From Thuidium tamariscinum (Eukaryota; Streptophyta; Bryopsida; Hypnales; Thuidiaceae): DNA of 64,000 nucleotides. A program made the translations under genes and the position numbers. The notes beneath the pieces were generated by a model, which was not told where the DNA came from, made no database searches, and saw only the letters and a list, made by a program, of their open reading frames with translations. Within the stretch, counting starts at the first letter, position 1, and each line of letters starts with the position of its first letter. Below, piece after piece: positions 38,471 through 55,643 of the stretch. The DNA is taken from positions 8,000,501 to 8,064,500 of the forward strand of contig OX344758.2 in the NCBI GenBank assembly GCA_947034885.2, given 5' to 3'.

Positions 38471-40369
38471 GTGAGGTACCATTTAAAATGGTGTTTTTGC
38501 ATTCACAAGGAAGGAAATTTCACATCTGCCAACTTTGACAACCTCCCCAAGGATGAAAAATTAATCCTTCACCATAAAAAATTTGAAAATGACATCAACT
38601 TTATATTAGTCATATGTGCGGTAAATTTCAAGGCCAAAAGATTTACACAAAAGAAAAATATTCAAAGTCTACCAACATATGTAATTGTGTGAAAATTTTC
38701 ACTACTGCCAACTTTGCTATCCTCCCAACTATTGGAAAAAAAGAATTTGCCATGAAATTTTTGTCATGAGATCATATCTATGATGATAATATGTGTACCA
38801 AATTTCAAAGTCAAAAGATTTACACAAGAAAAGATATTTGAAATCTACCAACATGTGTAGTTGTAAGGACAATTTCACTATTGCCAACTTTGCTAGTGCC
38901 CTTTGAAGGATTGAAAAAAAAATTCTTGCTATGAAATTCTTTCATGAAGACACCTCTATATATGTTGATATTATGTGTGACAAATCTCAACTTCAAAATA
39001 CTCACTCAAGGAAAGATATTTGAAATCTACCAACCTGTATGGTTGTATGAGTGATTTTTGCAACCCTTTTCAATCATCTTTTTTTGAGTAAACCTTTTGA
39101 ACTTGAGACTTGGCATGCATCTTACTAACAATGTGACAATGTGACGAAAAGAGGCAGTCACTGTGATGTGATTAATTTTCCTACCCCCCCTCATCAGAAA
39201 AATCAATAGTCGTTGGATTTGAATTTAAAAAAATCCCAACCCCCCTCCAAGAAAAATCAACAACCGTCGGATACTAATACAGATATTGCATACCAATATG
39301 GATACTGAATACGGATACTGAATATGGATACAGATTACAGATATTAGTACTGAATACAGATATGATGAATACAAATACGATATATGGGTATACGGATACT
39401 ATATACTGTATCCTCTATCCCATATCCTTTGTCTCCAACCCCACCCTCTAAGAATTAGAAGAGGGATTTACAAATTAAAAATTTTTGAAAATTTAATATT
39501 TAATATTTATATCAAATTGGGAGGGGAGGGGGCTTAAAAATTTTAATATTTAAATCATTAAATCAGATTGGGAGGGGCTGAGGGGGGGGGGGGGTGCTAG
39601 TTTTTTTTTAATTTAAATTTTTTTTAATTTTTGAGCTCATTGTGACACAATTTGTTCACAATGACAATGAGCTCAAAAGAGGCAGTCACTGCCTCACACA
39701 ACATAGAGATGATTTCATGACAAAAAATTTCAAGGTAAATAAACAACTTTTCATCTCTTTAGAGGGGGTCAAAGTTGGTAGCATTGACATTGTCTTTTAC
39801 AACTATACATGTTGGTAGATTTCAAATATCTTTCTTTGAGTGAGTATTTTGAACTTGAAATTTGTCACACATAATATCAATATAGAGATGTCTTCATGAA
39901 AGAATTTCATGGCAAGAAAAGTTTTTTTCAATCCTTCAAAGGGTACTAGCAAAGTTGGCAATAGTGAAAATGTCCCTACAACTACACATGTTGGTAGATT
40001 TCAAATATCTTTTCTTGTGTAAATCTTTTGAATTTGAAATTTGGTACACATATTATCAACATAGATATGATTTCATGACAAAAACTTAATGGCAAATTCT
40101 TTTTTTCAATTCTTAGGAGGGTGGCAAAATTAACAATAGTGAAATTTTTCACACATCTACAAATGTTGGTAGACTTTGAATATCTTTTATTGTGTAAATT
40201 TTTTGGCCTCAAAATTTGTCATACATATGATTAACATAAAGGTGATGTTGTGCCAAAAAAAATTATAGTGAAAGAAAATTTTTTCATCCCTTGAGAGGTT
40301 GTCAAAGTTAGCCAATGTGAAATTTCTTTCTCTGTAAATGCAAAAACGCCATTTTGAATGGTACCCCAC
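38471..40369. mobile_element. Foldback element with modular inverted arms
   Basis: The termini GTGAGGTACCATTTAAAATG and CATTTTGAATGGTACCCCAC are inverted repeats, followed on both sides by GCAAAAACRCCATTTT-type sequence. The left arm (to about 39055) has about three modules of 150-185 bases in plus orientation; the right arm (about 39060-40369) has the same modules reversed. Module landmarks are ACTATTGCCAACTTTGC, CATGAAATTCTTTCATG and GATATTTGAAATCTACCAAC. The spacer side of the right arm is interrupted by the element at 39130-39699. Long modular inverted arms are typical of foldback transposons. Non-coding. Confidence 0.65.
39130..39699 (+). mobile_element. 640-bp dispersed element, copy 2, nested in the foldback element
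   Basis: It starts AATGTGACAATGTGACGAAA and has the same left block, GGATAC/GAATAC units (39268-39420), G-run blocks and terminal GAGCTCATTGTGAC hairpin as copy 1. AAC (39127-39129 and 39700-39702) is directly repeated at the junctions. Removing the insert restores a normal foldback module (CTTACTAACATAGAGATG against ATTATCAACATAGATATG at 40056). Near the right end GAGGCAGTCACTGCCTC (39679-39695) is a perfect palindrome about a central C. Confidence 0.65.
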
Positions 40370-42786: not shown

Positions 42787-43658
42787 TTTTGAAAAGACCA
42801 TTTGTCCCTTTGGAGGACAATTTGGATTTTGGGTAGGTACCTATTGACTTTTTAGAACTTGTTTTGAAGATAGAGATAAAGATTTTCTTTGTGGGACTAT
42901 AATTTTTTTTCAACTGATGCTTAGGAACAATAATTATGCTTAGAAGCAAAAACTATCCTCAAAATGAAAAAAATAAGAAATAATAATTTTTTTCAAAAAT
43001 TAGAATTTTTAAGAATTTTTTTCCAATATATTAAATTCTTGTCTATATGAAAAGGTTTTATTCATTTCATTTGGATAAGTGGTGTGAAAGTTATGAGCAA
43101 TCTTGTTTTTTTGGGCAATCTAAGCATTTTCTTGAAAAAATAACTTCTATGATTCATTTCAAAATGCAATTTCCACAATTTAAAAAAACAGCAATCCTAC
43201 ATTGTTTAAATTTGCTTGCTAGAACAATCTCATCATTGGAATTAGTGTGTTTAACTTTAATTCCATCTTAGAAATATTAATAATTTAGATTTTCTTGCTA
43301 TCTTGTAGCTACTTCTACTTAAATTTTTTTTTAAGGAAAATAGATTAAGATTTTTTTCTTGAATATCTTTTCCTAAACTCTAGAAAAAATTCCCTACTTT
43401 AAAGATTTAAACTTAAAAACTCTATAGTGCAAAAAAATTAAATTAAACAACTCAAAGTCAAATAATCTACTCTTGCGACTTGCAAAAAAATTTGTTTGTT
43501 TCACTTTTTCTGAAATTTATTCTCTATATTCTCATTCTAATTAGGTATAAGATCCTATAGTTGGATGTGCAAAAACATTCAAATTTTGTTATTCCTTGTA
43601 ATAGAAATGACAATTTTGTGTGTGTGTTTTTGCAAAAAAGGCCTTGGTCCTTTAGAGG
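42787..43658 (-). mobile_element. TTAA-flanked piggyBac-like element, copy H
   Basis: The right end GGCCTTGGTCCTTTAGAGG is followed by TTAA (43659-43662). The interior is the reverse complement of the family (TTCATTTCATTTGGATAAG, AAGTTATGAGCAATCTTG). The left end near TTAA 42783-42786 is decayed. The MULE inserted exactly at its right junction, duplicating 10 bases that include this TTAA. Confidence 0.6.
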
Positions 43659-43663
43659 TTAAG

Positions 43664-43892
43664 CAACGACGCTAGCATGTGAGCATGTGAGCGTGAGCCT
43701 ATGAGCAGTGAGCGTGAGCCTACGAGCGGTGAGCAGGAATTGTGTGAGCCTAAAGTCTACAAATTTGAATTATGATATAACTTTTGATTTTCTTTAGTAG
43801 AAAAGTAAAACAGATTGATGTTTTTTCAACAGAGTTTATTGTTTTAAGAAAATATGACCTATTGCTGTGGGACCCATGACCGTGGATTTAAA
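43664..43892 (+). repeat. Left terminal inverted repeat region of the MULE
   Basis: Outer GTGAGC-rich tandem (GCATGTGAGCATGTGAGCG, then GAGCCTATGAGCAGTGAGCG units), a less conserved part, and an inner conserved GGACCCATGACCGTGGATTT block ending about 43892. The left region is about 130 bases longer than the right one because the outer tandem and the spacer differ in length. Confidence 0.65.
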
Positions 43893-44226
43893 AACCTAGA
43901 AAGTTGGGGCTATTGCAAGTTCAAATTTTATATCCAGATTTATATCATGTTTTCAAAAGTTCTCCTAGAGTAAGTTCATAAAGTGAGAGTGCAAACAATT
44001 CATCCAAAGGAAATTCTAAAATTGACAAGAAGACAAATGCAATGAAAATACCAAAAAGAATTCCTCATCCTACAAATAATAAAATATTGTTTCATTGCAA
44101 CAAAAAATACATATTAGAATATGAATATAATACTTTGCATATATGAAAATTTTGAAGATAACATATCGCTACTACATATTTACTTCATATCATGCTAATA
44201 CTAGTCAACTAACTTGTTCAGTGACT

Positions 44227-47200
44227 TCACTCGTACGTCTTGATGATTCCAGCAGCAACAAGCACTTGCTTAACTTCATCCAAACTAAGGGTAGGAGCGT
44301 GAATGAATGTGTCTGTCTTGTAATCCAATTTGCAGAAGTAACGAAAAATGTAATAAAGATGTTTGCAGTTTATGTACATGCCACGCTTTCCAATGGAAGT
44401 TCCATTCATACCTCCATAATGGGGACAAGTACAAGATGGAAAATTGGAAAGCGTGATATTATAAACCTTTTGATTAGGCTCACTACCAGACAAAAGTGTA
44501 ATAATAGCACCAAGTCCAGGGTAAGGAAGGAAGTTCACCCCAGTGATACTTGCTGTAACGTTCCTGGCACTCTCCTATTGATTGCGGTGATTTTCAGTGG
44601 GGGCCTTACTGCTACGACGAACTTATTTTCCATTTCGAATGGAAGGGATTCTGTCAGCATGTACTGGTCGAGGGTGAGTCCATAACATTGGCTCAAATAC
44701 CCTAAATGAGGTGAATAGCCGGCACGGTGACATCGGAATGCTAGACTGTAAGCGAAATCCAGCCTCTTCAAACTCTATAATTTTGGTACGAGTAAGATTG
44801 GTACCAATAAGAACCGACCAAATCTCAGGGATCTCATGTCGAGTAAGAACATGGGAACGTTTAGGTCCCATGACACATCGTGCAATTTGGTTTGCACAAA
44901 ACCAAAAATCCTCAGTTTGAACTACTGTACCCTTATACTCACGCTTTTGCCCTCTATAAGTAGGGGCAGCTGTGGATATTCCGTGCCTCACAATCAATAA
45001 CTTGCATTTGGCTTGTATGTACTTCTGAATGGCATGACACTGTTTCCTTGACTTGTGTGAAATTCTCGCTATATGCCATTCTACAGTATCACAGTCAGTT
45101 TCCATGACAGATTGGGTATGGGGTAAAACTATATTAGTTTCCTGAACTGCAGATCCAAGTTGCACTCTACCACTAGTTGACCTAATTTGAACCTGAGGAT
45201 GAGAGAAGTTCACTTTGTCGGGGCGATGAGAATCACCTTCGGAACCAATAGGAAGATCTAATTTCCTTTTGCTGGATCCAAATACTTCTTCACCCTCCAA
45301 ATGCGGAATTCGAGTGTAAATGTCTTCTACTCCAGGCATCTCACTAACTGCATCTGCAATTTTTTTTCCATCTCCAGATGCCATAGCCCTCTTCAATTTC
45401 AAATCTTCTTTAGAAGGGCCTTTTCTAGAAGGGCCTCCACAAAGATAAGCCCTATAGTTGGTCATCTGCATAAAGGCTTGAACCCAGTCATCACAAGTGG
45501 CAACAAACAAATCAGATCCACACTTCCCTGAAGCTTGCATCTATTTGTTGTGCATTGTTTTTGCCAGATTGCATGTTGGAATGTCTGTTAATTCTTCTAT
45601 CGTCAATTTCTGCAAATATAATAAATGAAGTCATTATTTGAAACATTTAGCATATAGGATAAAAAATAGAAAAACAAACAATAAAAGTAGAGATCATACC
45701 GTATCCATGAATGCACCCCATTGACGATATCGAAAGTGCCAAAATGCTAGCCAATCCTCAAGTTCACGGATAGCTGGTTCTGATGCAGCTTCAGAAGAAT
45801 ACCCACCAAGCTTTGATTTCTAGATACATCTTATCCGCCTCAGACATTGATATTGCATCCTTATATTGCTTGCAAAGTCGAATATGTTGTTTTTGGAACT
45901 CTTTGGCAATTAACTTCTCCGTGTGCTTGTGCATACTTGTTGCCCAATGGAACAAGCAAGTCCTATCACGGTCCACCATTGGAATAGATGGATCCTCCGA
46001 CCCATACACAGTGCGAACAGCATTAAAGTTGGCTTGAGCACTATCGCACATGAATCCTTTGAAGGTAGGACTTGACACTCCATTTTTTACCATGACCTTA
46101 TTTAGGCAACGCCAAAAAATGATCTGACCTTCAGAGCCCTCAGTCTGCATATCACATACTGCAATGGTCATGACTTTACAATAAGTAGAATCATAAATGT
46201 GACAAGCAATAGTTGTCTATAATTTCACCCTCTTGACATGATCAAACATGACAAAACAATTCTCAAGGTTGCCGCCAGGTTGCATCCGTCGTACAAGATC
46301 CATTCCACTTCCAGGTCCATCCACGAGCATCTTGAATAAATACACCTTGTCTTGCCCTTGTCTTGGAAATACGCTATCGTGGATATACTTCATTTTGGCA
46401 CGTCCCTTCATGTCTAAAATTCGATCAATCTTGCCTCCACCTTTGTTGTTGTTTTGGAAAGAGGATATGATGTTGCGCACATTGGGCGAGCTAAGGAGCT
46501 TGAACTTATCCATGACATTCTCCAACGCATCACCGTGAAGCATCTCCTTTGGTTCAGGCCCATCGTGAATAAGAAACGTATCAAGGAATTCCTTGCTTGC
46601 CGCCAAGGTAATAGCAGAAGTCTTGGCTGTTGGAGTCCTAGCTACTTCATTAGCAAGTAGCCCAGTTATTGCTTGAAGAGACTCTCTACATTGACCATCA
46701 GCAACTGGATGTGAATGAACACCCAAATGGATGCATGCACGTGACAAATCTCCGGTTCTGAGTACATAATAAATCCGTGAGTTACATAGACTGAGACAAG
46801 TAGGAGGTTGTCTACAGACTTTATAAAGCACAGTAGAGTCAAGGGGAGGGATTTGACCTATGCTAAAAGGATGTTTAGTGGTCTCAATCCACTCAGTTTC
46901 ATTGTTTTTCAAAGCTCGTGTGCGGTAGTCACATTTTGTATTTTCACAAATCAAGTGTCCGATACAATGGGACTTTCTGAACTTCAAACCTAGGTCATTA
47001 TGGATGTTTGATGTCATAGTGCGACACCATGCATGACCATCATACCGCTTGTCCATACCTTCCATACCTCTAGCTCCAAATGTAGATCCACTACAAGGTG
47101 GCAACTCAAAAAGAATATTACCATCGAATCTAGCTGGGAGGAATTGAACCTTTTGATAGTCAATGGCATCAAAATCAGTTTGGGCAAGTTCATTCCGTGA

Positions 47201-47842
47201 TCCAGGCACTGAAGACAGTTTGCGAAGGCATTCTAATACACTTAAGGAATCATGATGATTGGGGGGGAGAGGAGGACGAGAGAACCCGGACGATGCTGGA
47301 CTATTAAGTGTACTACGGAAGGTAGTGGGAATGGGTGAATCTACCACACATGGGAAAACAACATTTGAAGAAGATGGTTGCCGAGCTTTAACTAGCATCT
47401 CACCTTCAGAATCACTAGACAACTCTATGACAGGTTCCAAAGGCTCGTGTTTCACATTGAAACCAATTGTATTCTCGGAGCATCCACTACCTAGGGACTC
47501 TACTTTTACATAATAGGGTAATGGGTGTTTACCCTTGGACATATCAAAAGTAGGTGTTAGTATTTCAGTTGAAGGTGGCAAGAGCTTCGACAAGAGACCA
47601 TAAACTCTATAACGTCCTGCAGAAAGAAGCCAATAGAATCCTTCATGATCACTACATCTTGACTGCAAAATAGACTCCTTAACAACACCGTAGTTTCCTT
47701 GGACTTCTTCCTCTACAACAATAGAAGAAGGGGTGAATCCAAACCGGACATGAAGGAGATCAGTGTGCACCTGAACAAAACCTTGACTATCTAGTGGTAA
47801 AAGAAATGGGACATCATGACCTTTAGCAACAATACTAGCCAT
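44227..47842 (-). pseudogene. MULE transposase, broken by stops and frameshifts
   Basis: Exon 1 runs from ATG 47842 to the donor after 45700; exon 2 from 45609 to TGA at 44227. Read through, it is about 1,100 residues. N-terminal half: a serine-rich linker, then a Cys/His module (HCIGHLICENTKCDYRTRAL, later HLGVHSHP) that may be a WRKY/GCM1-like zinc finger. Core: ACHIYDSTYCKVMTIAVCDM and FKGFMCDSAQANFNAVR carry the likely DDE acidic residues, followed by CLFHWATSMHKH. C-terminus: SCTCPHY then CKHLYYIF, a SWIM zinc finger (CxC...CxH). The order zinc finger, DDE, SWIM is that of MULE transposases. Breaks: TAG after VKRVKL (46217-46219), TAG after MHNK (just before 45540), and frameshifts near KAWW, EEAGF and VSLG. 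Both TAGs stand where tryptophan would be expected. Confidence 0.8.
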
Positions 47843-48519
47843 AGTGAAGCATTAAAGAAAAGTAGAAAACTAGAGGCAAGACCAGTACAAAGAAGCAAGA
47901 AATGATGTTTGTGAGTGCAAGGGATGTGAATATGAAGGATAAAATTATAGGGTTGTTCGAAATGAATGGAATTTTTTTCATGGATGTAGTAAAATTTGAA
48001 ATTGGATTGATGATTTGAATGGTCATTCATCATGAATATCATATGAAGATTTGATATAGAAGAAGGTACATTAATAGTAGGTGAAATGGAGTTGGGTAAG
48101 GCGGCATACTACATGGCATCAATTAGCGTATCACCAATAATAAATGAATTATAATATGAAGAATATTGATTTGTATCAGACGAAGTTGTCAGTGTTATAA
48201 CTGTCGCTAACAAAAGATGGTAAGTCGTCATGCATTGGAGTTGATGATGACATACGACATGTTTAGAATTATAATTATACATCTAGTGACAGGTTAAGAA
48301 TGTAGTGGTTGATGATGATTCAAATTTCAAATAAAAGTAGCTGTTATGTAGTAATGAAATGAAACTATATCCTTACAAAGAGGAGTCTTTGAAGTCTCAT
48401 AGATTATAAAAGTTTGATGAGCATAATGAGGTAGCAGATAGAAATGCGAGTTAGGAAGAAGGTGTGGTCTAGTATGGCAAATGTTGATATTGTAATGCTT
48501 TGATAGTTGATTATTTCAG

Positions 48520-48928
48520 ATGCAAGAGCACTTGCTTTCTCCATTGTTAGTATTGGATACTGTAGTTACAGGTATGAAGAAGAAGAGGAGGAAAAGTAGC
48601 TTTCGTTTTTCAAGTAGAAGGCAATTGTTAAATGCTAGAATGATTAGGCAGTTGTCTCGAATGAGTGCAGCAGATTTGTTGAGCACAAGGAGGAATTTAA
48701 CATATGAAGGTATAGTTCCTTGTGAAGCAATAAGAGAGGATATTGTAGAGGTTGGGCATACTTCTTGTGAAGCTCAACCAGAGATTGCCTCTAGCTATAG
48801 TGATTGTGATCAAAACATTGACGAAGAAGAAGATGAAGTAGACGAAGACAAAGAAGAAGAACAGCAACACCAATCCGTAGTACAAGTACTGGAGTTGGAA
48901 GTAGAGGTAGGAGGTACAAAGAAAATGG
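48520..48928 (+). other. Candidate exon with basic then acidic segments
   Basis: It is preceded by TTATTTCAG (an acceptor-like site) and ends ATG followed by GTACGTAA (donor-like). It encodes a lysine/arginine-rich start (MKKKRRKSSFRFSSRR) and a glutamate/aspartate run (NIDEEEDEVDEDKEEEQQ). It could be an upstream exon of the ParB/methyltransferase-like gene or a third small gene of the MULE. No family is recognised, and splicing to later exons cannot be shown. Confidence 0.35.
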
Positions 48929-49615
48929 TACGTAAATAATTTTTGCAAGCAATGGTAAATTAGAAAGTACGTGAAATTTTTTTTGTGACACATTTTTAGG
49001 AACTTTATATCATTTTGTGCGCGTCGGAAGCACGATTCCAACGGTATATAGCACGTAAAAAATGGATGCATATTGAGTGTTTTACGGCCTAAAAACTAAA
49101 ACAGCATTTTGGAATCTTTCCTGAAATCTTCAGAATTTGCTGATTTTAGGCCAAATCCAGGCCTCCGAGTTTTAGCAATTTTTTGGCGATTTTTGTAAAA
49201 TCACTGGAGTGTCCAAAAAATCTGAAAAAAATTAGAGGAAATCTGACCCGTAGAATCTGTGGGTACAAAATTTTTTGGCTTGAAATCTTGAAAATTGAAG
49301 AAGTTATTCAAAAGATTCCCTTGAGGTACATCTACCAATTCTATACTTGTTTTTTTTTTGTTTTTTTTGGGAGACTTGCTTCAACCTAAGCCTTGTTGTT
49401 TCTTCGCACGTTGTCTTTGAAGGCGCTGGAGCATCAACATACAGAAGAAGAGGAGGGCGGAGAAGCTATCACGATGGAAGAAGGGGAGGCTACAGCAAAG
49501 GCTTCGGCGGAATCAGAGCGGCGAGCTCAACGTGGAAAAACGGCGATCCAAGAAAATGAGCGGACAGCAAGTGCGGCGATTGAGGCAAATCCAAGTTCGT
49601 GGTTTTTTTTTGGCC

Positions 49616-50530
49616 TTCCTAGACCCCAGCCGTTGACGGCTGCGCTTTTTCCGATTCTACTTCGCTTTCAATAATGCTTAGAATTCTGCTGATGTCTGCC
49701 CCTGTAATGGACAGCCATTAACGGCCACTGTTTTCTGAATTTCAGTTTAGGGTATTCACTGCTACAATTCTGTAAAGCATTATAATTTTTGGAGCCTTGC
49801 TAAACCCCAGCCGTTAACGGCTATGGTTTTCGAGATTTAGATTTGCTTCCAATAGATACTATGAAGTAGTCAAATGCCGAAATTTTCGAGCCATTCTAGA
49901 CCCCAGCCGTTGACGGCCGTACTTTCAACACATTCATTTTTTTCTTTAGAACATTAGGGATTTGATCAAATGTTGAAATTTTTGAGATCTTCTTAGACCC
50001 CAACCGTTAACGACCACGCTTTTAGAGACATAAATTTGTTGTTTAATTATGCTACATCTCTGAATACTTGCCAAATGATGAAATTTTTAGGACTTCTTAG
50101 ACCCCAGCCGTTAACGGCCACGCTTTCAAAGACATAAATTTTTTGTCTAACTATTCTACATTTTTGAACACTTGCCAAATGCTGAATTTTTAGGACTTCT
50201 TTGACCCCAACCATTGACGGCCACGCTTTTAGAGACATAAATTTGTTGTCTAAATATGCTACATTTCTAAATACTTGCTAAATGCTGAAATTTTTTAGGA
50301 CTTCTTTGACCATAGCTGTTCAAGACTACATTTTTCAAAAACTTGCATTTACTTTTGATGTATGCTAGATTGTTATAAAATTGTCACATGCTGAATTCCT
50401 TTAGAACTTCTCAGACCCCAGCTGTTGACGGCCACACTTTTAGAGACTTGCATTTGCTTTTAATACATGCTATGTACTTGATTTTATGCTGAAATTTTTG
50501 GGCCTCCTTAGATCACATCTATTAACACTT
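49616..50530 (+). repeat. ~100-bp tandem array with palindromic GCCGTTAACGGC cores
   Basis: About ten units with periods of 85-107 bases. Each has AGACCCCAGCC then GTTAACGGCCACGCTTT or a close variant, then TAGAGACATAAATTTGTTG and a CTTGCCAAATGCTGAAATT segment. Cores start at 49629, 49714, 49810, 49906, 50003, 50107, 50210, about 50314, 50421 and about 50517. GCCGTTAACGGC is a perfect 12-base palindrome in the units at 49810 and 50107. The array sits between the two divergent MULE genes and just before the plus-strand start, so a promoter or protein-binding role is plausible. Confidence 0.85.
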
Positions 50531-50611
50531 CCTATATTAAATTGCATATTTTTTGGTACATATGCATAAACTACAACTTCTTCTAATCTTTTTGTACACA
50601 TTGTTCTTGAG

Positions 50612-53600
50612 ATGTTGACAAAAGGAGATCCACAAGCACAAATAGTAGATGCCGCACTTCAGCCTCTATCTCAAGATCAATTGGAGTTAGAGTTGCATGG
50701 ATTCTTGAAGAAGGAGACTGTGAATACTTCTTCTCTTCTTGAGCGGTTGAGGTATCAACCATGAGCTAAATCCAAAATCAACATTCCTTTGTGCCGTATG
50801 ATCTCTTTACCGGTGATGAGGCCTTTCTTGAAGAATGATGTTATGAATTTAGCTGCACACTTTGTTACTTGTGGTTACATGGAAGGAAATGGAGTTTTCT
50901 ATGTTGCCTTGGAGAACAATGAGGGGAAAACAGTAGATGTCACAGATGACATTATCAAAACATGAAGTCCAAACTGGGTAAGAGCAAATGCTGCATTTGA
51001 GAGAGAATTGCAAAATGATGAAGATCTCAAAGCTTTTTCTGGTAAGATGTTTATGGTGTGGGATGGCAACCATTGTTTGCAAGCATGGTTGCCTCTTATC
51101 AACCGAGATCATGCGAACGACTTTCAATGGCATTATGCTATTGAAAGTATCATTTGGGAGGTCAAAGGGGATGTTGCGACTATGCTGACAGCATTGCATG
51201 AAGTCAATTGGTATTCCCTTATGTTTCTCTATCAATTTTCATTTTATTCAATTCCTCTATTTTCAAAGTTTATGTAATTTGGAATATTAAATGTACCACT
51301 ATTCTATCTTCTTTAGTTCAATGTTCACTTCATCGATTCTAATACAATAAATTTTGTTTTGGCAGGCGAAACCAGAAGTTTCATGTCTCCATAAATCTTG
51401 TTCACAAGCTCTATCGCATTCAAAGTATTGCTGGACAGCCACTCTCATACTTTGAGAAACTTGTTTCTAAGGAGGATCTTGTTGCAGCTGAAGCTAAGCA
51501 AAAGTCAAAACAAAGAACTTGGTTCACTCTAACTCTGGAGGCTCTAAATGGATTCTTATATCAGGTTTATTTTTTAATTTCCTTTTTTCACTTCATATTT
51601 CCTTGAATGTTTAGGCTTCTTCACATTTGCACTTTCTTTCATTTGATTTTATATCTCTTCATCAAGTATGCAAAATATTTGTTATCATGTGCAATTTTAT
51701 TTATTCTTATACATTCTTTACTTTGTGCAGTAAGAGTTGGGGGATGCTGCGGCTGCGGCTCAAAGAAAATTCTATAAGAAGTATCCCAATCCAGCAGATT
51801 GGACTTCAAGTGCAGTTTCTGAGTGGGTCTTCAAAGTTGTTGACAAAGTCAAGATAGCTTCCCATTCAGAATTGAAGAAACAACTTTCCATTGCTGATCC
51901 GAAGCATACAACCGCATTTTTGGAGTAGATAAAGCTTCATTATGAAACTCATGATGACAATCCAGAGATGACCTAGGAGAAACTTTGGATGTTGGCAACT
52001 TCAGCGATGGATACTTCCATGAAGATCAAGTGGCTTGAGAGATGGAACAAGTCTCCTTCTCTTCATGAGGCTCTCAGATTTTCTAAACCGAAATTCAATG
52101 ACATTGACTTTCCTGAGTGGCTTCATAAAGCTACATGGTGGGCTCAGGTGAATACTTATCTTTCTTTCCTACTATTTTAGTACTACTTCTTTGAACCTTT
52201 TGAGTCAATCAAACCATTCTTCTAATTTACAATTTGTGTACATGGCAGTTGGCTATTGAGACAGAAAAACTTTTCAATGCTACAGTGGCTGATTTGGACG
52301 TGTCTATTAACTATCTTCCCGATGGTATGGATCCATTGCCTATCATTTTTGATTATGTGGAGACAATGCGCATACTGTTGTGGGATACTGCATTTTTCCG
52401 TGAATTTGCTGTAGATAAGGGGGTTTCACAAGAACAATAAGATAAACAAGCAACTCAACTTCAAATCAGCCATGCAGAGGGTACTTTATAGGTACTTCAA
52501 GTACATCCTTTTTCTTGCCAAAGTCATTTCCAGAACTCCTACTTTCTTTGCCAATTATTTGGACAAAGAAAGTGAAGAGTGCATGTTTACAGATGGGATC
52601 ATGAAATCTTGGGATCCCATGCATTGGGAAAGATGTGGGTGGTATTTGGATTGTCCTCTTAAAAGACCACCTACTTTTGACATTGTCCTTCGAGATTCTA
52701 TTGAGCCCGCCCTCAAAGGTACAATTATAATTGTTCTTAAAGTGGTTGATAAGGATGCAACCAAGAAGACTAGAAAGACTAAGTCAAAGAAAGTGGTGGT
52801 TGATCTTGATGATTCTAATGAAGATGTACCAGTTGAAGACACTCTCAAAAACCTTGTTGTCACTGGACCTTCTTATTCCAATGTTCAAGAAAAACTCCCT
52901 GCTTCAAAACGCCAGAAGACATCTTCTACTCCTATGGTTTGGTACCAACCTCCTCTCCTACCTTTGAGCTACTTCCTAAGCTTAAAGGTATGATGAGTAC
53001 TCCGGCTCCTTTGTCTATCAATCATACATCTCTTAATCTAATCTTGAATGATTCTTTTGTTAGAATTGTTGAAGAGAAGAAGAAGAATGGTACATTTGGT
53101 ATATCATATGACAACATTGTGGCTTTTCTCTCAAAGGTGAGTTCATTCTTTCTATTTGTTTGTTTTTTATCTCATTTTTATTGTTATGAAATCTTACATG
53201 TTCTATATAATTTACATCTTCTCATTTATTTTCTTTTATGACTTTGACATCTTTTATCATGAATTAACATTTCTGAAATTTATCTTTGTAGGTTGGTGAA
53301 GGCAGAGAGTTCTTTTTTGATGGAAAAATACAAAAGAGACCAGCTGTGGACTTCATCATTGCTGAATATCCAGATGGTCTTCCAATTCTAGGCGTTTCAA
53401 ATCCACCATCTCAAATTCCACATTGGAATGCTAGCATTCCAAGTTTTCTTCATGTGATGATGGCGTTCTCTCTTACTTATCTTCATGATGATGGAGCATT
53501 TCTTCTATTTTTACCTGACAGTTCTACAGTGAAGAGAGAAGTGGCTGGATTCTTCAAGAATTACAAATTGAAGATGAAGGATGAGTAGACTATCATAAAT

Positions 53601-54751
53601 TGCTTACATTTGGCACATCCTATGAACCCATCCAAATTTGTAAGTAGTAATTTTAATCTTTTACTTCTACTTTTGACTCGATTGTTATTACACTTTGTTT
53701 GATTTCAAATGTACCTTCTAATTTGAATTTGATTTTGATTTGCAGACATTGAAGTTCAAGGCTTTGTTGTTGGTTCGATCATTTGCCTCTCCTACTGCTA
53801 GACTACCTCAAGAGCTTCAGATTTCTATTGATCCTTCAATTCTCGAGGTTGATATAGCCACAGATGACGTCCTCTTCAACTCTATCACGACAACAACTCA
53901 ATCATGTAGAAAGGAAGATGGCAAGCCATAGAGGGGTGCTAAGGAGAAGTCTGAGGTTCTAATGAAGCTTTTTGTTCATGGCTTGAGCCCTACAAGTGGT
54001 ATTGTTGCAGACATGACTGCCTCTACAGGTATTGTAATCTACATTATTGAATCATTATTTTTCTATTTTGTGATTTGATTGTTTTTATTTACCCTTCAAT
54101 TTTGATGTTCTTATCATGTCAATGTTGTGTCTTAATCAGGTTCTTCCATCAGAGCAGCTCATTCATCTAATCGCCATATCCTAGCATTAGAAAGTGATGC
54201 CAAGCTCTTTGATGAGGTTCTCAAGCCATTACAAACACCTACAACCATCTCTAAGACTCTTGATTCTTCTACCACAGGCGATGGTATGGACATTGATGAT
54301 GACTCTCCAATTGAAGATGTCGAACTACTTGACTTATGTGAGTAAGTCTTATTTATGTTTATTTCTCTTTTAACAACTTCAATTCAAAATTCTTTACTTA
54401 ATATTCTAATTTACTACTACATACTCAAATATATGGCTTGTTGTTTGCAGTTGAATGAGTCCATCACCAAGACAGACCTTGCCTTTTTATCGGCACCCTG
54501 GATTTTTTTAAAGTCCTACTTTGAGTCCTCAGGGTTTACCTACATATGCTGAAGATTTAGCTTTAGCTTATGCTAATGTTTCATCTAATTCATCTTCAGT
54601 CTCTTTATCACCTCGTAGATCTTATGATCCTAGGGTATGTTCTTATTTTGAACTCAGTGCATCTGAGTTAGACGATATTTGAGTTTGATTTTATGATTTC
54701 ATATTTCATTTCTATTTACTTTATTTTCAGATTGAATTTAACTATACATGA
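50612..54751 (+). pseudogene. ParB-like / beta-class DNA methyltransferase-like gene of the MULE, broken
   Basis: Nine exons with GT-AG borders: 50612-51210, 51366-51564, 51731-52147, 52249-53136, 53292-53639, 53746-54028, 54140-54341, 54451-54634, 54731-54751. N-terminal part: KINIPLCRMISLPVMRPFL, a helix region LAAHFVTCGYM, then FMVWDGNHCLQAWLPL, the DGNHR-like signature of ParB/sulfiredoxin-fold domains. C-terminal part: VDFIIAEYPDGLPILGV at the place of motif IV (DPPY), DDGAFLLFLPDSSTVKREV, then EKSEVLMKLF and GIVADMTASTGSSIRAA followed by HILALESDAKLF, the EKP and motif I (DPFxGxG) region. Motif IV before motif I is the beta-class order of N6/N4 DNA methyltransferases (PF01555). Both catalytic motifs are degenerate. 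About ten in-frame stops and several frameshifts (exon 4) show decay. The tail is serine/proline-rich. Whether the protein was ever an active methylase is unknown. Confidence 0.7.
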
Positions 54752-55534
54752 TGTGGCAACAATCCCAATTAATGGCCTAAGACTTCACCCTATGCCCAAA
54801 TTGAACAATAAAATTATGAGTCTTGAATTACACTACATTATTAAACTTTTTAAAATTATACATAGTACACTTTAACTTGGAATTCAACTAAACTACTAGC
54901 ATTGGATTTGTTTTTAGAAGAAAGTTTTTTGACTAAGATAGTCCAAAAATAAAGCCATTCACTAGAAAAATAGTTGCTTACTTCATTCTAGGTTAATACA
55001 TATATTTAGTATATAATATATGACTATCATGTATATTTTAAATATTTTCTATCCAAGATTGTTTTTGTTTTTAATTTTAAAGCATTGTTATAAAAATAAA
55101 ATAAAATAAGACATGACCATTTTCATTCTTTAAATTTACATAAAGACCAACAATTAAGACTACATTTATTCCTTAGTCATAAGCTCAAAACCATTGTTCA
55201 TGATATAGTGCTTGTAATATTTTGCCTATCACCAAATTTATATTCAACCTCTACAATCCATGTTTATTGCCCCTTCTATTTTTAACTTGATAAATGTCCT
55301 CCTTAAATAATGGTGTTATGATGTATTGTATTTTTTCATATATGTCTTTGTAGTAAGATATCCTAGATTACTGGATTCACGTATTTTCATCATCATGTGT
55401 TGTTTACAAAATATTTCCTATTTTTTATAATATTCCAATTTAAAAATATATTTTGGTTCAATTTTGGGGGACAAAATCACATAGTAACAATTTCATTTGT
55501 TTTTCATTCGGACTATAGATCCTTGCATTTAATT

Positions 55535-55633
55535 CCACGGTCATAGGTCCTTAACAGATTTAGGAATCTTAAATGGATAAAAAAATGGAGGCTCACAGGC
55601 TCATGCTCACAGGCTCACAAACTAGCATCCCCG
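55535..55633 (-). repeat. Right terminal inverted repeat region of the MULE
   Basis: The complement reads CGGGGATGCTAGTTTGTGAG from the edge, then GAGCCTGTGAGCATGAGCC and, inward, GGACCTATGACCGTGGAATT, matching the left region. It is followed by the AGAGGTTAAG duplication. Confidence 0.7.
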
Positions 55634-55643
55634 AGAGGTTAAG

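Follow-up and report, generated by a model that had tools for sequence, protein, structure and literature searches.

In the moss Thuidium tamariscinum, a gene that resembles ParB-methyltransferase (ParB-MTase) fusions is a standing second gene of a transposon clade and not chance cargo. We describe it from a stretch of 64,000 nucleotides (assembly GCA_947034885.2, contig OX344758.2, positions 8,000,501 to 8,064,500), here called the window, which corresponds to C10:8000501-8064500 in the genome searched (363 Mb, 19 contigs); plain coordinates below are positions in the window. NAC-domain matches in that genome number 27, about 14 genes by manual count, in keeping with a land plant that has few of them, as would a bryophyte. 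The gene lies within a DNA transposon of 11,970 bp (43664..55633) with features of a Mutator-like element (MULE). We give about an even chance to the reading that the clade is autonomous and MULE-like, with the transposase and this gene as its two genes, and that the gene's product would serve as a DNA-binding accessory factor, probably a non-catalytic one.

Pairing with the transposase across the genome

The standing of the gene rests on its association with the transposase throughout the genome. With the transposase as query, 80 of 879 candidate places were scored; 39 of these had no stop codon over the length matched, and 64 (manual count) were 51–58% identical. A loose first look had returned over a thousand candidates for the MTase and ParB halves. 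The MTase half of copy C8a, used as query, gave 168 matches, with 89 distant ones among those listed (~31–42% identity, manual count), many of them stop-free, and the ParB half gave 146, most at 35–46%. When the transposase places were compared with the 106 MTase places among the matches listed, further exons of the same copies being excluded, an MTase match was found within 16 kb at 60 of the 80, and all 60 pairs were divergent, as in the window. Random placement yielded a mean of 1.03 pairs and a maximum of 5 in 500 runs. Because three quarters of the places are paired, without exception divergently, against about one expected by chance, the gene is very unlikely to be a one-off capture. Distant families make up 45 of the 60 paired places (manual count), and the 20 unpaired transposases may lack a partner only through the best-of-list scope of the candidates. 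The two halves of the gene also keep together: 22 ParB-MTase pairs stand within 15 kb, on one strand and in the right order (143 of the 146 ParB places and 103 MTase places were compared), and eight distant pairs among them retain strand, order and a gap of 2,090–2,109 bp.

The gene and the transposase were amplified together recently, and their relatives are paired across families whose transposases are 51–58% alike. A first-pass annotation of the window had proposed that a modification gene was taken up as cargo by a MULE; a gene inside an element with terminal inverted repeats it proved to be, and the idea of chance cargo gave way to that of a regular partner. A host gene and a single Pack-MULE capture were also considered, and were rejected on the evidence of the copies and of the pairing at 60 of 80 places. 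Distant copies of the clade are abundant on contig C11 (matches to ~17.3 Mb), which holds 29 of the 143 ParB places and 18 of the 103 MTase places; as a speculation, C11 might be a repeat-rich sex chromosome.

The mobile element, its genes and their copies

The boundaries of the copies coincide with those of the window element or lie within a few bases of them. Its terminal inverted repeats are 21 bp long and imperfect, reading CAACGACGCTAGCATGTGAGC on the plus strand at the left (43664..43684), where a cluster of GTGAGC hexamers follows, and CGGGGATGCTAGTTTGTGAGC on the minus strand at the right (55613..55633), with 15 of 21 letters matching by manual count. Ten of the 11 GTGAGC/GCTCAC hexamers in the element fall within its two terminal 100-bp stretches. 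A 10-bp target-site duplication, AGAGGTTAAG, flanks the element on the left (43654..43663) and the right (55634..55643). Duplications of 9–10 bp were present in all eight copies, the window included, for which both ends were found (8 of 11; the left end was outside the fetched stretch in copies C2 and C5 and was not found in the C3 stretch). These eight duplications, AGAGGTTAAG, ATTAGATAC, CAAAATTTT, CCTAACTTTC, CCCTACTCTT, GTTTTCAAG, CACAACAAA and, with one mismatch in copy C10b, TTATTTTACT/TTATTTTATT, are all different and provide strong evidence that the element has been mobile.

The transposase gene, on the minus strand at 44250..47842 (low end placed by eye), is damaged in the window copy, where it is represented by open reading frames at 46217-47842, 45791-46216 and 44623-45540 and a C-terminal piece near 44260-44560. 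Judged by eye, its layout is what we take to be a GCM1-like zinc region and a D..D..CxxH core (DDE). A SWIM-like CxCxnCxH is visible by eye, and the SWIM profile scored below cut-off (expectation value, E, 0.13). The Pfam MULE model PF10551 did not match the joined transposase pieces, and none of its 33 matches in the genome falls at the 80 transposase places. MULE target duplications range from 8 to 11 bp; with MuDR, Jittery and Pack-MULEs the element shares terminal inverted repeats and duplications of the 9–11 bp class, and it differs from them in having no PF10551 match. We therefore call it MULE-like by its ends, its duplications and the transposase layout read by eye; with PF10551 unmatched, its assignment to that superfamily is tentative. 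The first-pass annotation had placed the gene inside a plant Mutator-like element bounded by terminal inverted repeats: shared ends, repeats and duplications bear out the bounded element, while the Mutator-like label found no match in the transposase model. Outside the element, two tandem arrays occupy 38623-39047 (182-bp units) and 39798-40245 (175-bp units).

Divergent from the transposase, on the plus strand, the ParB-MTase-like gene consists of seven coding exons with GT/AG borders, which join in frame from a start at 50612 to a TAA codon at 54343-54345. Exon 1 (50612-51210) carries a ParB/Srx-like DGNHR motif at 51047-51088 and is followed by exon 2 (51366-51564), exon 3 (51731-52147) and exon 4 (52249-53136). 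Exon 5 (53292-53639) contains the first half of the MTase-like region, with VDFIIAEYPDG at the motif IV position (53346-53411); exon 6 (53746-54028) has motif X and the start of motif I (GIVADMTAST), and exon 7 (54140-54345) the remainder of motif I, (G)SSIRAAHSSNRHILALESD, and the stop codon. The peptide GIVADMTASTG followed by SSIRAA, which spans the exon border, is thereby encoded in the spliced gene, as are the peptides FMVWDGNHCLQAW, VDFIIAEYPDGLPILGV and EKSEVLMKLF singled out in the first-pass annotation. Across the 11 recent copies, 126 of 132 splice dinucleotides are kept (6 changed) and exon lengths agree except for small indels, so the model goes beyond chance. The annotation's nine splice-compatible exons at 50612..54751 were right in their start and wrong in number and end: the stop at 54343-54345 is in frame in nine of 11 copies (C6 and C9 are out of frame through upstream indels), which rules out the longer model and leaves the stretch to 54751 superfluous.

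The window copy of the gene is a pseudogene: exons 1-3 together contain five in-frame stops, exon 5 and exon 6 have a single stop apiece, and exon 4 has two frameshifts. These frameshifts are private to it, being absent from the other ten copies, three of which have shifts of their own there. Its relatives reveal a gene of 979 codons, and copy C8a has all 979 with one internal stop. The ten other recent copies are 95.5–97.5% identical to the window in the gene region, and pairwise difference among the 11 averages 3.1% (55 pairs, 2.1–4.6%); older copies are ~70–91% identical. Decayed derivatives at 70–75% identity (L029-L035, for example C2:26532120-26533718) have the exon 1 portion fused directly to the portion from exons 5-7, the middle being lost.

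The damage in the recent copies is largely individual. No internal stop is common to all 11, and among 26 stop-making variants 19 occur in a single copy and seven in at least two, all seven recurrent ones being C>T/G>A. Private changes (n = 367) include 269 C>T/G>A and are spread evenly over codon positions (127, 118, 122), while changes shared by at least two recent copies (n = 84) include 78 C>T/G>A, the seven stops among them. This excess of C>T/G>A probably reflects decay of methylated DNA. Within the recent burst, a test for selection detected no constraint, as expected of dead copies. Since the 11 copies have no stop in common and C8a retains 979 codons with one stop, the burst appears to have begun from an open gene.

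Traces of earlier constraint were sought by comparing two older copies (90% and 86% identical) with the state shown by most recent copies (8 or more of the 11) at sites where both old copies agree. Changes between old and recent copies outside the C>T/G>A class, an exclusion decided after the decay pattern had been seen, numbered 32, of which 6 fell at first, 5 at second and 21 at third codon positions (binomial P 1.9e-4). With C>T/G>A included the distribution was 21, 25 and 35 (P 0.04), a much weaker bias, and the single-copy differences of the two old copies were nearly flat over codon positions (80, 85, 85 and 95, 94, 105). This third-position bias supports, on few sites, purifying selection on the coding frame in the master lineage before the bursts. 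It also bears on the possibility that the gene is a one-off, Pack-MULE-like piece of cargo with no function for the element. The pseudogene state of the window copy and single-copy decay free of constraint, as in any dead copy, would fit such cargo, but pairing at 60 of 80 elements, third-position bias and the long retention implied by old and recent copies all argue against it, and we regard it as very improbable.

The protein, the palindrome array and their possible roles

Profile comparisons indicate, with moderate strength, that the C-terminal half of the protein descends from a prokaryotic amino-methyltransferase, in agreement with the phage- or bacteria-type origin first proposed. PHROG 3008, annotated 'DNA methyltransferase', matches this half with E 4.7e-5 and 2.5e-5, the similarity lying at and near motifs X and I; three more methyltransferase families match it weakly. 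A hidden Markov model (HMM) of eight phage ParB-methylases scored nine of nine natural copies at 7.9–16.2 bits, compared with 7.3 for the best shuffled decoy (10,000 shuffled, 5,384 scored; two of the 11 copies were excluded for frameshifts), and the printed alignments again cover motifs X and I. The motifs appear to follow the order IV-X-I: X and I were aligned by profile, and IV was located by eye, at roughly the distance one would expect.

In beta-class amino-methyltransferases a DPPY-type motif, [DNS]PP[YFW], is catalytic. In 13 copies of the moss gene (11 recent, 2 old), the motif IV position carries EYPDG or a close variant (EY[PL][DN]G or KYPDG) and never DPPY, and the FxGxG of motif I has T or I in place of F and S in place of the first G. 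The first-pass annotation had read DPPY before FxGxG; the position reads EYPD in the window. Because motif IV lacks DPPY in all 13 copies, catalysis is doubtful, and its loss in this branch makes it probable that the protein acts as a binder whose methylase role is gone. An enzyme that still methylates adenine at N6 or cytosine at N4 and so marks the DNA of its own element, as proposed for algal transposon proteins, would be consistent with the similarity to DNA methyltransferases and with the same domain pair and opposite-strand layout in the Sola transposon of Ectocarpus (PMC12477816). Against such an enzyme stand the altered motifs IV and I of the 13 copies, and we consider it unlikely; in the families at 31–42% identity both motifs may be intact.

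The N-terminal half is probably ParB/Srx-like, on the strength of its DGNHR motif. The sequence WDGNHRLQAW is exact in five of 11 recent copies and altered at one or more letters in the six others and the two old copies.

The stretch separating the two divergent genes contains eight palindromic cores arranged as an array (49630..50431), each matching CCRTTRACGG with at most one mismatch (ideal GCCGTTAACGGC). Seven cores are 85–104 bp apart and the last follows 211 bp on, in units of ~100 bp; in an alignment of the units, core and flank belong to the best-conserved portions. In 300 single-letter shuffles the mean was 0.06 cores and the maximum 2, compared with the eight observed, and the array is present in all 11 copies with 5–8 cores each. 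Genome-wide, a spaced pair of cores occurred 59 times forward and 48 times in reverse (107 together; backwards control, 0 and 1), a figure that stands for far fewer separate arrays because the core is nearly self-complementary and arrays match repeatedly. The places listed lie upstream of the gene, both in copies of the window family and in four deletion derivatives, or at a small number of other loci. Further arrays, not tied to a listed gene copy, lie at C1:16577553-16586094, C2:19439013-19443402, C2:45760226-45760338, C7:7037353-7037647 and C10:2942141-2942815.

If the protein is a binding factor, it would recognize its own element's DNA, either at the array between the genes or at the GTGAGC-rich ends, and once bound it might help the element to escape silencing, to stay expressed or to transpose. 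A specific form of this idea, to which we assign a low probability, is that of a pseudo-methylase with anti-silencing function: a phage- or bacteria-type ParB-methyltransferase would have become a protein that binds the element's palindrome arrays sequence-specifically and would protect or reopen the element against host DNA methylation. The accessory protein might instead serve transposition itself, in end binding, excision or insertion, with silencing uninvolved. Other MULEs have second genes acting as accessory proteins, and both the strict pairing with the transposase and the hexamers gathered at the two ends speak for such a role, but the end hexamers could be bound by the transposase alone; we rate this role as rather unlikely, slightly less so than an active methylase.

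Several observations weigh against an accessory factor derived from a ParB-methyltransferase. The Pfam model PF01555, under which the first-pass annotation had classed the C-terminal half as a beta-class methyltransferase, stayed below cut-off (E 0.047). Six-frame genome searches with PF01555 and PHROG 3008 gave no match at E ≤ 0.001, in a gene where an intron splitting motif I lowers such scores. The top NCBIfam row for the MTase half was a different enzyme, citryl-CoA lyase, far below cut-off (E 0.007). The margin over decoys was small for the weakest copy (7.9 vs 7.3 bits), and hhalign of the copies against phage fusions gave probabilities of 6.9% for the MTase half and 0.3% for the ParB half, from a copy alignment with an effective number of sequences (Neff) of 1. 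For the ParB half, the claim of a ParB-like domain keeps its DGNHR-like motif and lacks a ParB/Srx profile match: Pfam, NCBIfam, PHROGs and our own phage ParB HMM returned none, and the ParB fold gained no support from a search of PDB sequences or from a structure model of very low confidence. Single-sequence structure models as a whole were of very low confidence (pLDDT 39 and 41). Every one of the 11 recent copies has a stop or a frameshift; the search for intact copies between similar terminal inverted repeats, proposed at the outset, thus brought ten further copies and none wholly intact. Apart from these points, the remaining profile rows were weak and below cut-off (SAPI, E 0.12; SAM_PNT, E 0.039; WRC, E 0.12), no relatives were found in viral, prokaryotic and phage sequence collections, and PDB sequences held no related chain.

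The array contributes a further point of this kind. Among the matches listed, which end on contig C10 and do not include C11, no array separates a distant transposase from the MTase match paired with it; as far as listed, therefore, the clade as a whole does not have this array as its partner site. The same absence beside distant families favours the alternative that the array is an enhancer for host factors, which would time expression and be unrelated to the ParB-MTase-like protein. Each core, CCGTTA/TAACGG, comprises two AACGG boxes in opposite directions, which could be, for example, MYB3R/MSA-type sites, and these boxes, like the location of the array between divergent genes, suit such an enhancer. 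We consider it a serious contender, at somewhat less than an even chance.

Comparison with known systems

The reading of the gene as the accessory partner of a MULE-like transposase has its nearest structural counterpart in algae. Sola1-1_Ec32, the Sola1-1 transposon of Ectocarpus, carries a gene for a 1,104-aa protein with ParB-like and DNA methyltransferase domains, encoded on the other strand from the transposase, and green and red algal cases are cited alongside it (PMC12477816). Both domains occur there, as here, in one protein of ~1,000 residues (1,104 vs 979, the ParB half of the moss protein being motif-based) within a large DNA transposon, and in both the accessory gene is opposite to the transposase. 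The two differ in superfamily (Sola1 in the alga) and host lineage, and the algal methyltransferase is predicted to be active in that text, whereas motif IV is lost in the 13 moss copies. The comparison with the algal proteins draws on their published description.

The first-pass annotation knew of no described MULE with this cargo. In the literature searched by titles and the starts of abstracts (mostly open papers, best-ranked ones), we found no published ParB-methyltransferase gene from a land plant or from a MULE, while such genes have been published for algal transposons (PMC12477816). Within the reach of these searches, three features are new: the occurrence in a land plant inside a MULE-like element, the loss of the catalytic motif, and an array of palindromes separating the two genes. 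With the moss gene, a class of transposon accessory genes described from algae in the papers searched gains a land-plant member and, apparently, a further transposon superfamily; within one genome, transposase and accessory gene are paired both widely and strictly. That this branch has lost the catalytic motif suggests a need of the element for DNA recognition and perhaps not for methylation, and many families in one genome, with the 89 distant MTase places among the matches listed, are available to probe recognition against methylation.

With phage ParB-methyltransferase fusions the gene appears to share the order ParB-like region, motif IV, X and I, and it resembles them around motifs X and I. 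Unlike the phage fusions, which have DPPY and an FxGSG motif I, the plant gene is divided into seven exons, has a middle region of ~400 residues and shows eroded motifs.

By mode of working, the closest case would be VANC of the Arabidopsis VANDAL elements, a transposon-encoded anti-silencing protein that acts on tandem motifs of its element, as established by experiment (PMC5735166; PMC10398659). VANDAL elements likewise combine a transposase with accessory genes and carry tandem arrays of noncoding motifs, which differ between related families there (PMC5735166). VANC carries DUF1985/DUF287 (PMC5735166), and no such Pfam match occurs in the moss gene; VANC function was demonstrated experimentally, whereas the role of the moss protein is predicted from sequence. 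If the moss protein were indeed a pseudo-methylase with anti-silencing function, it would parallel, in a land plant, the role of VANC while having originated from a quite different protein.

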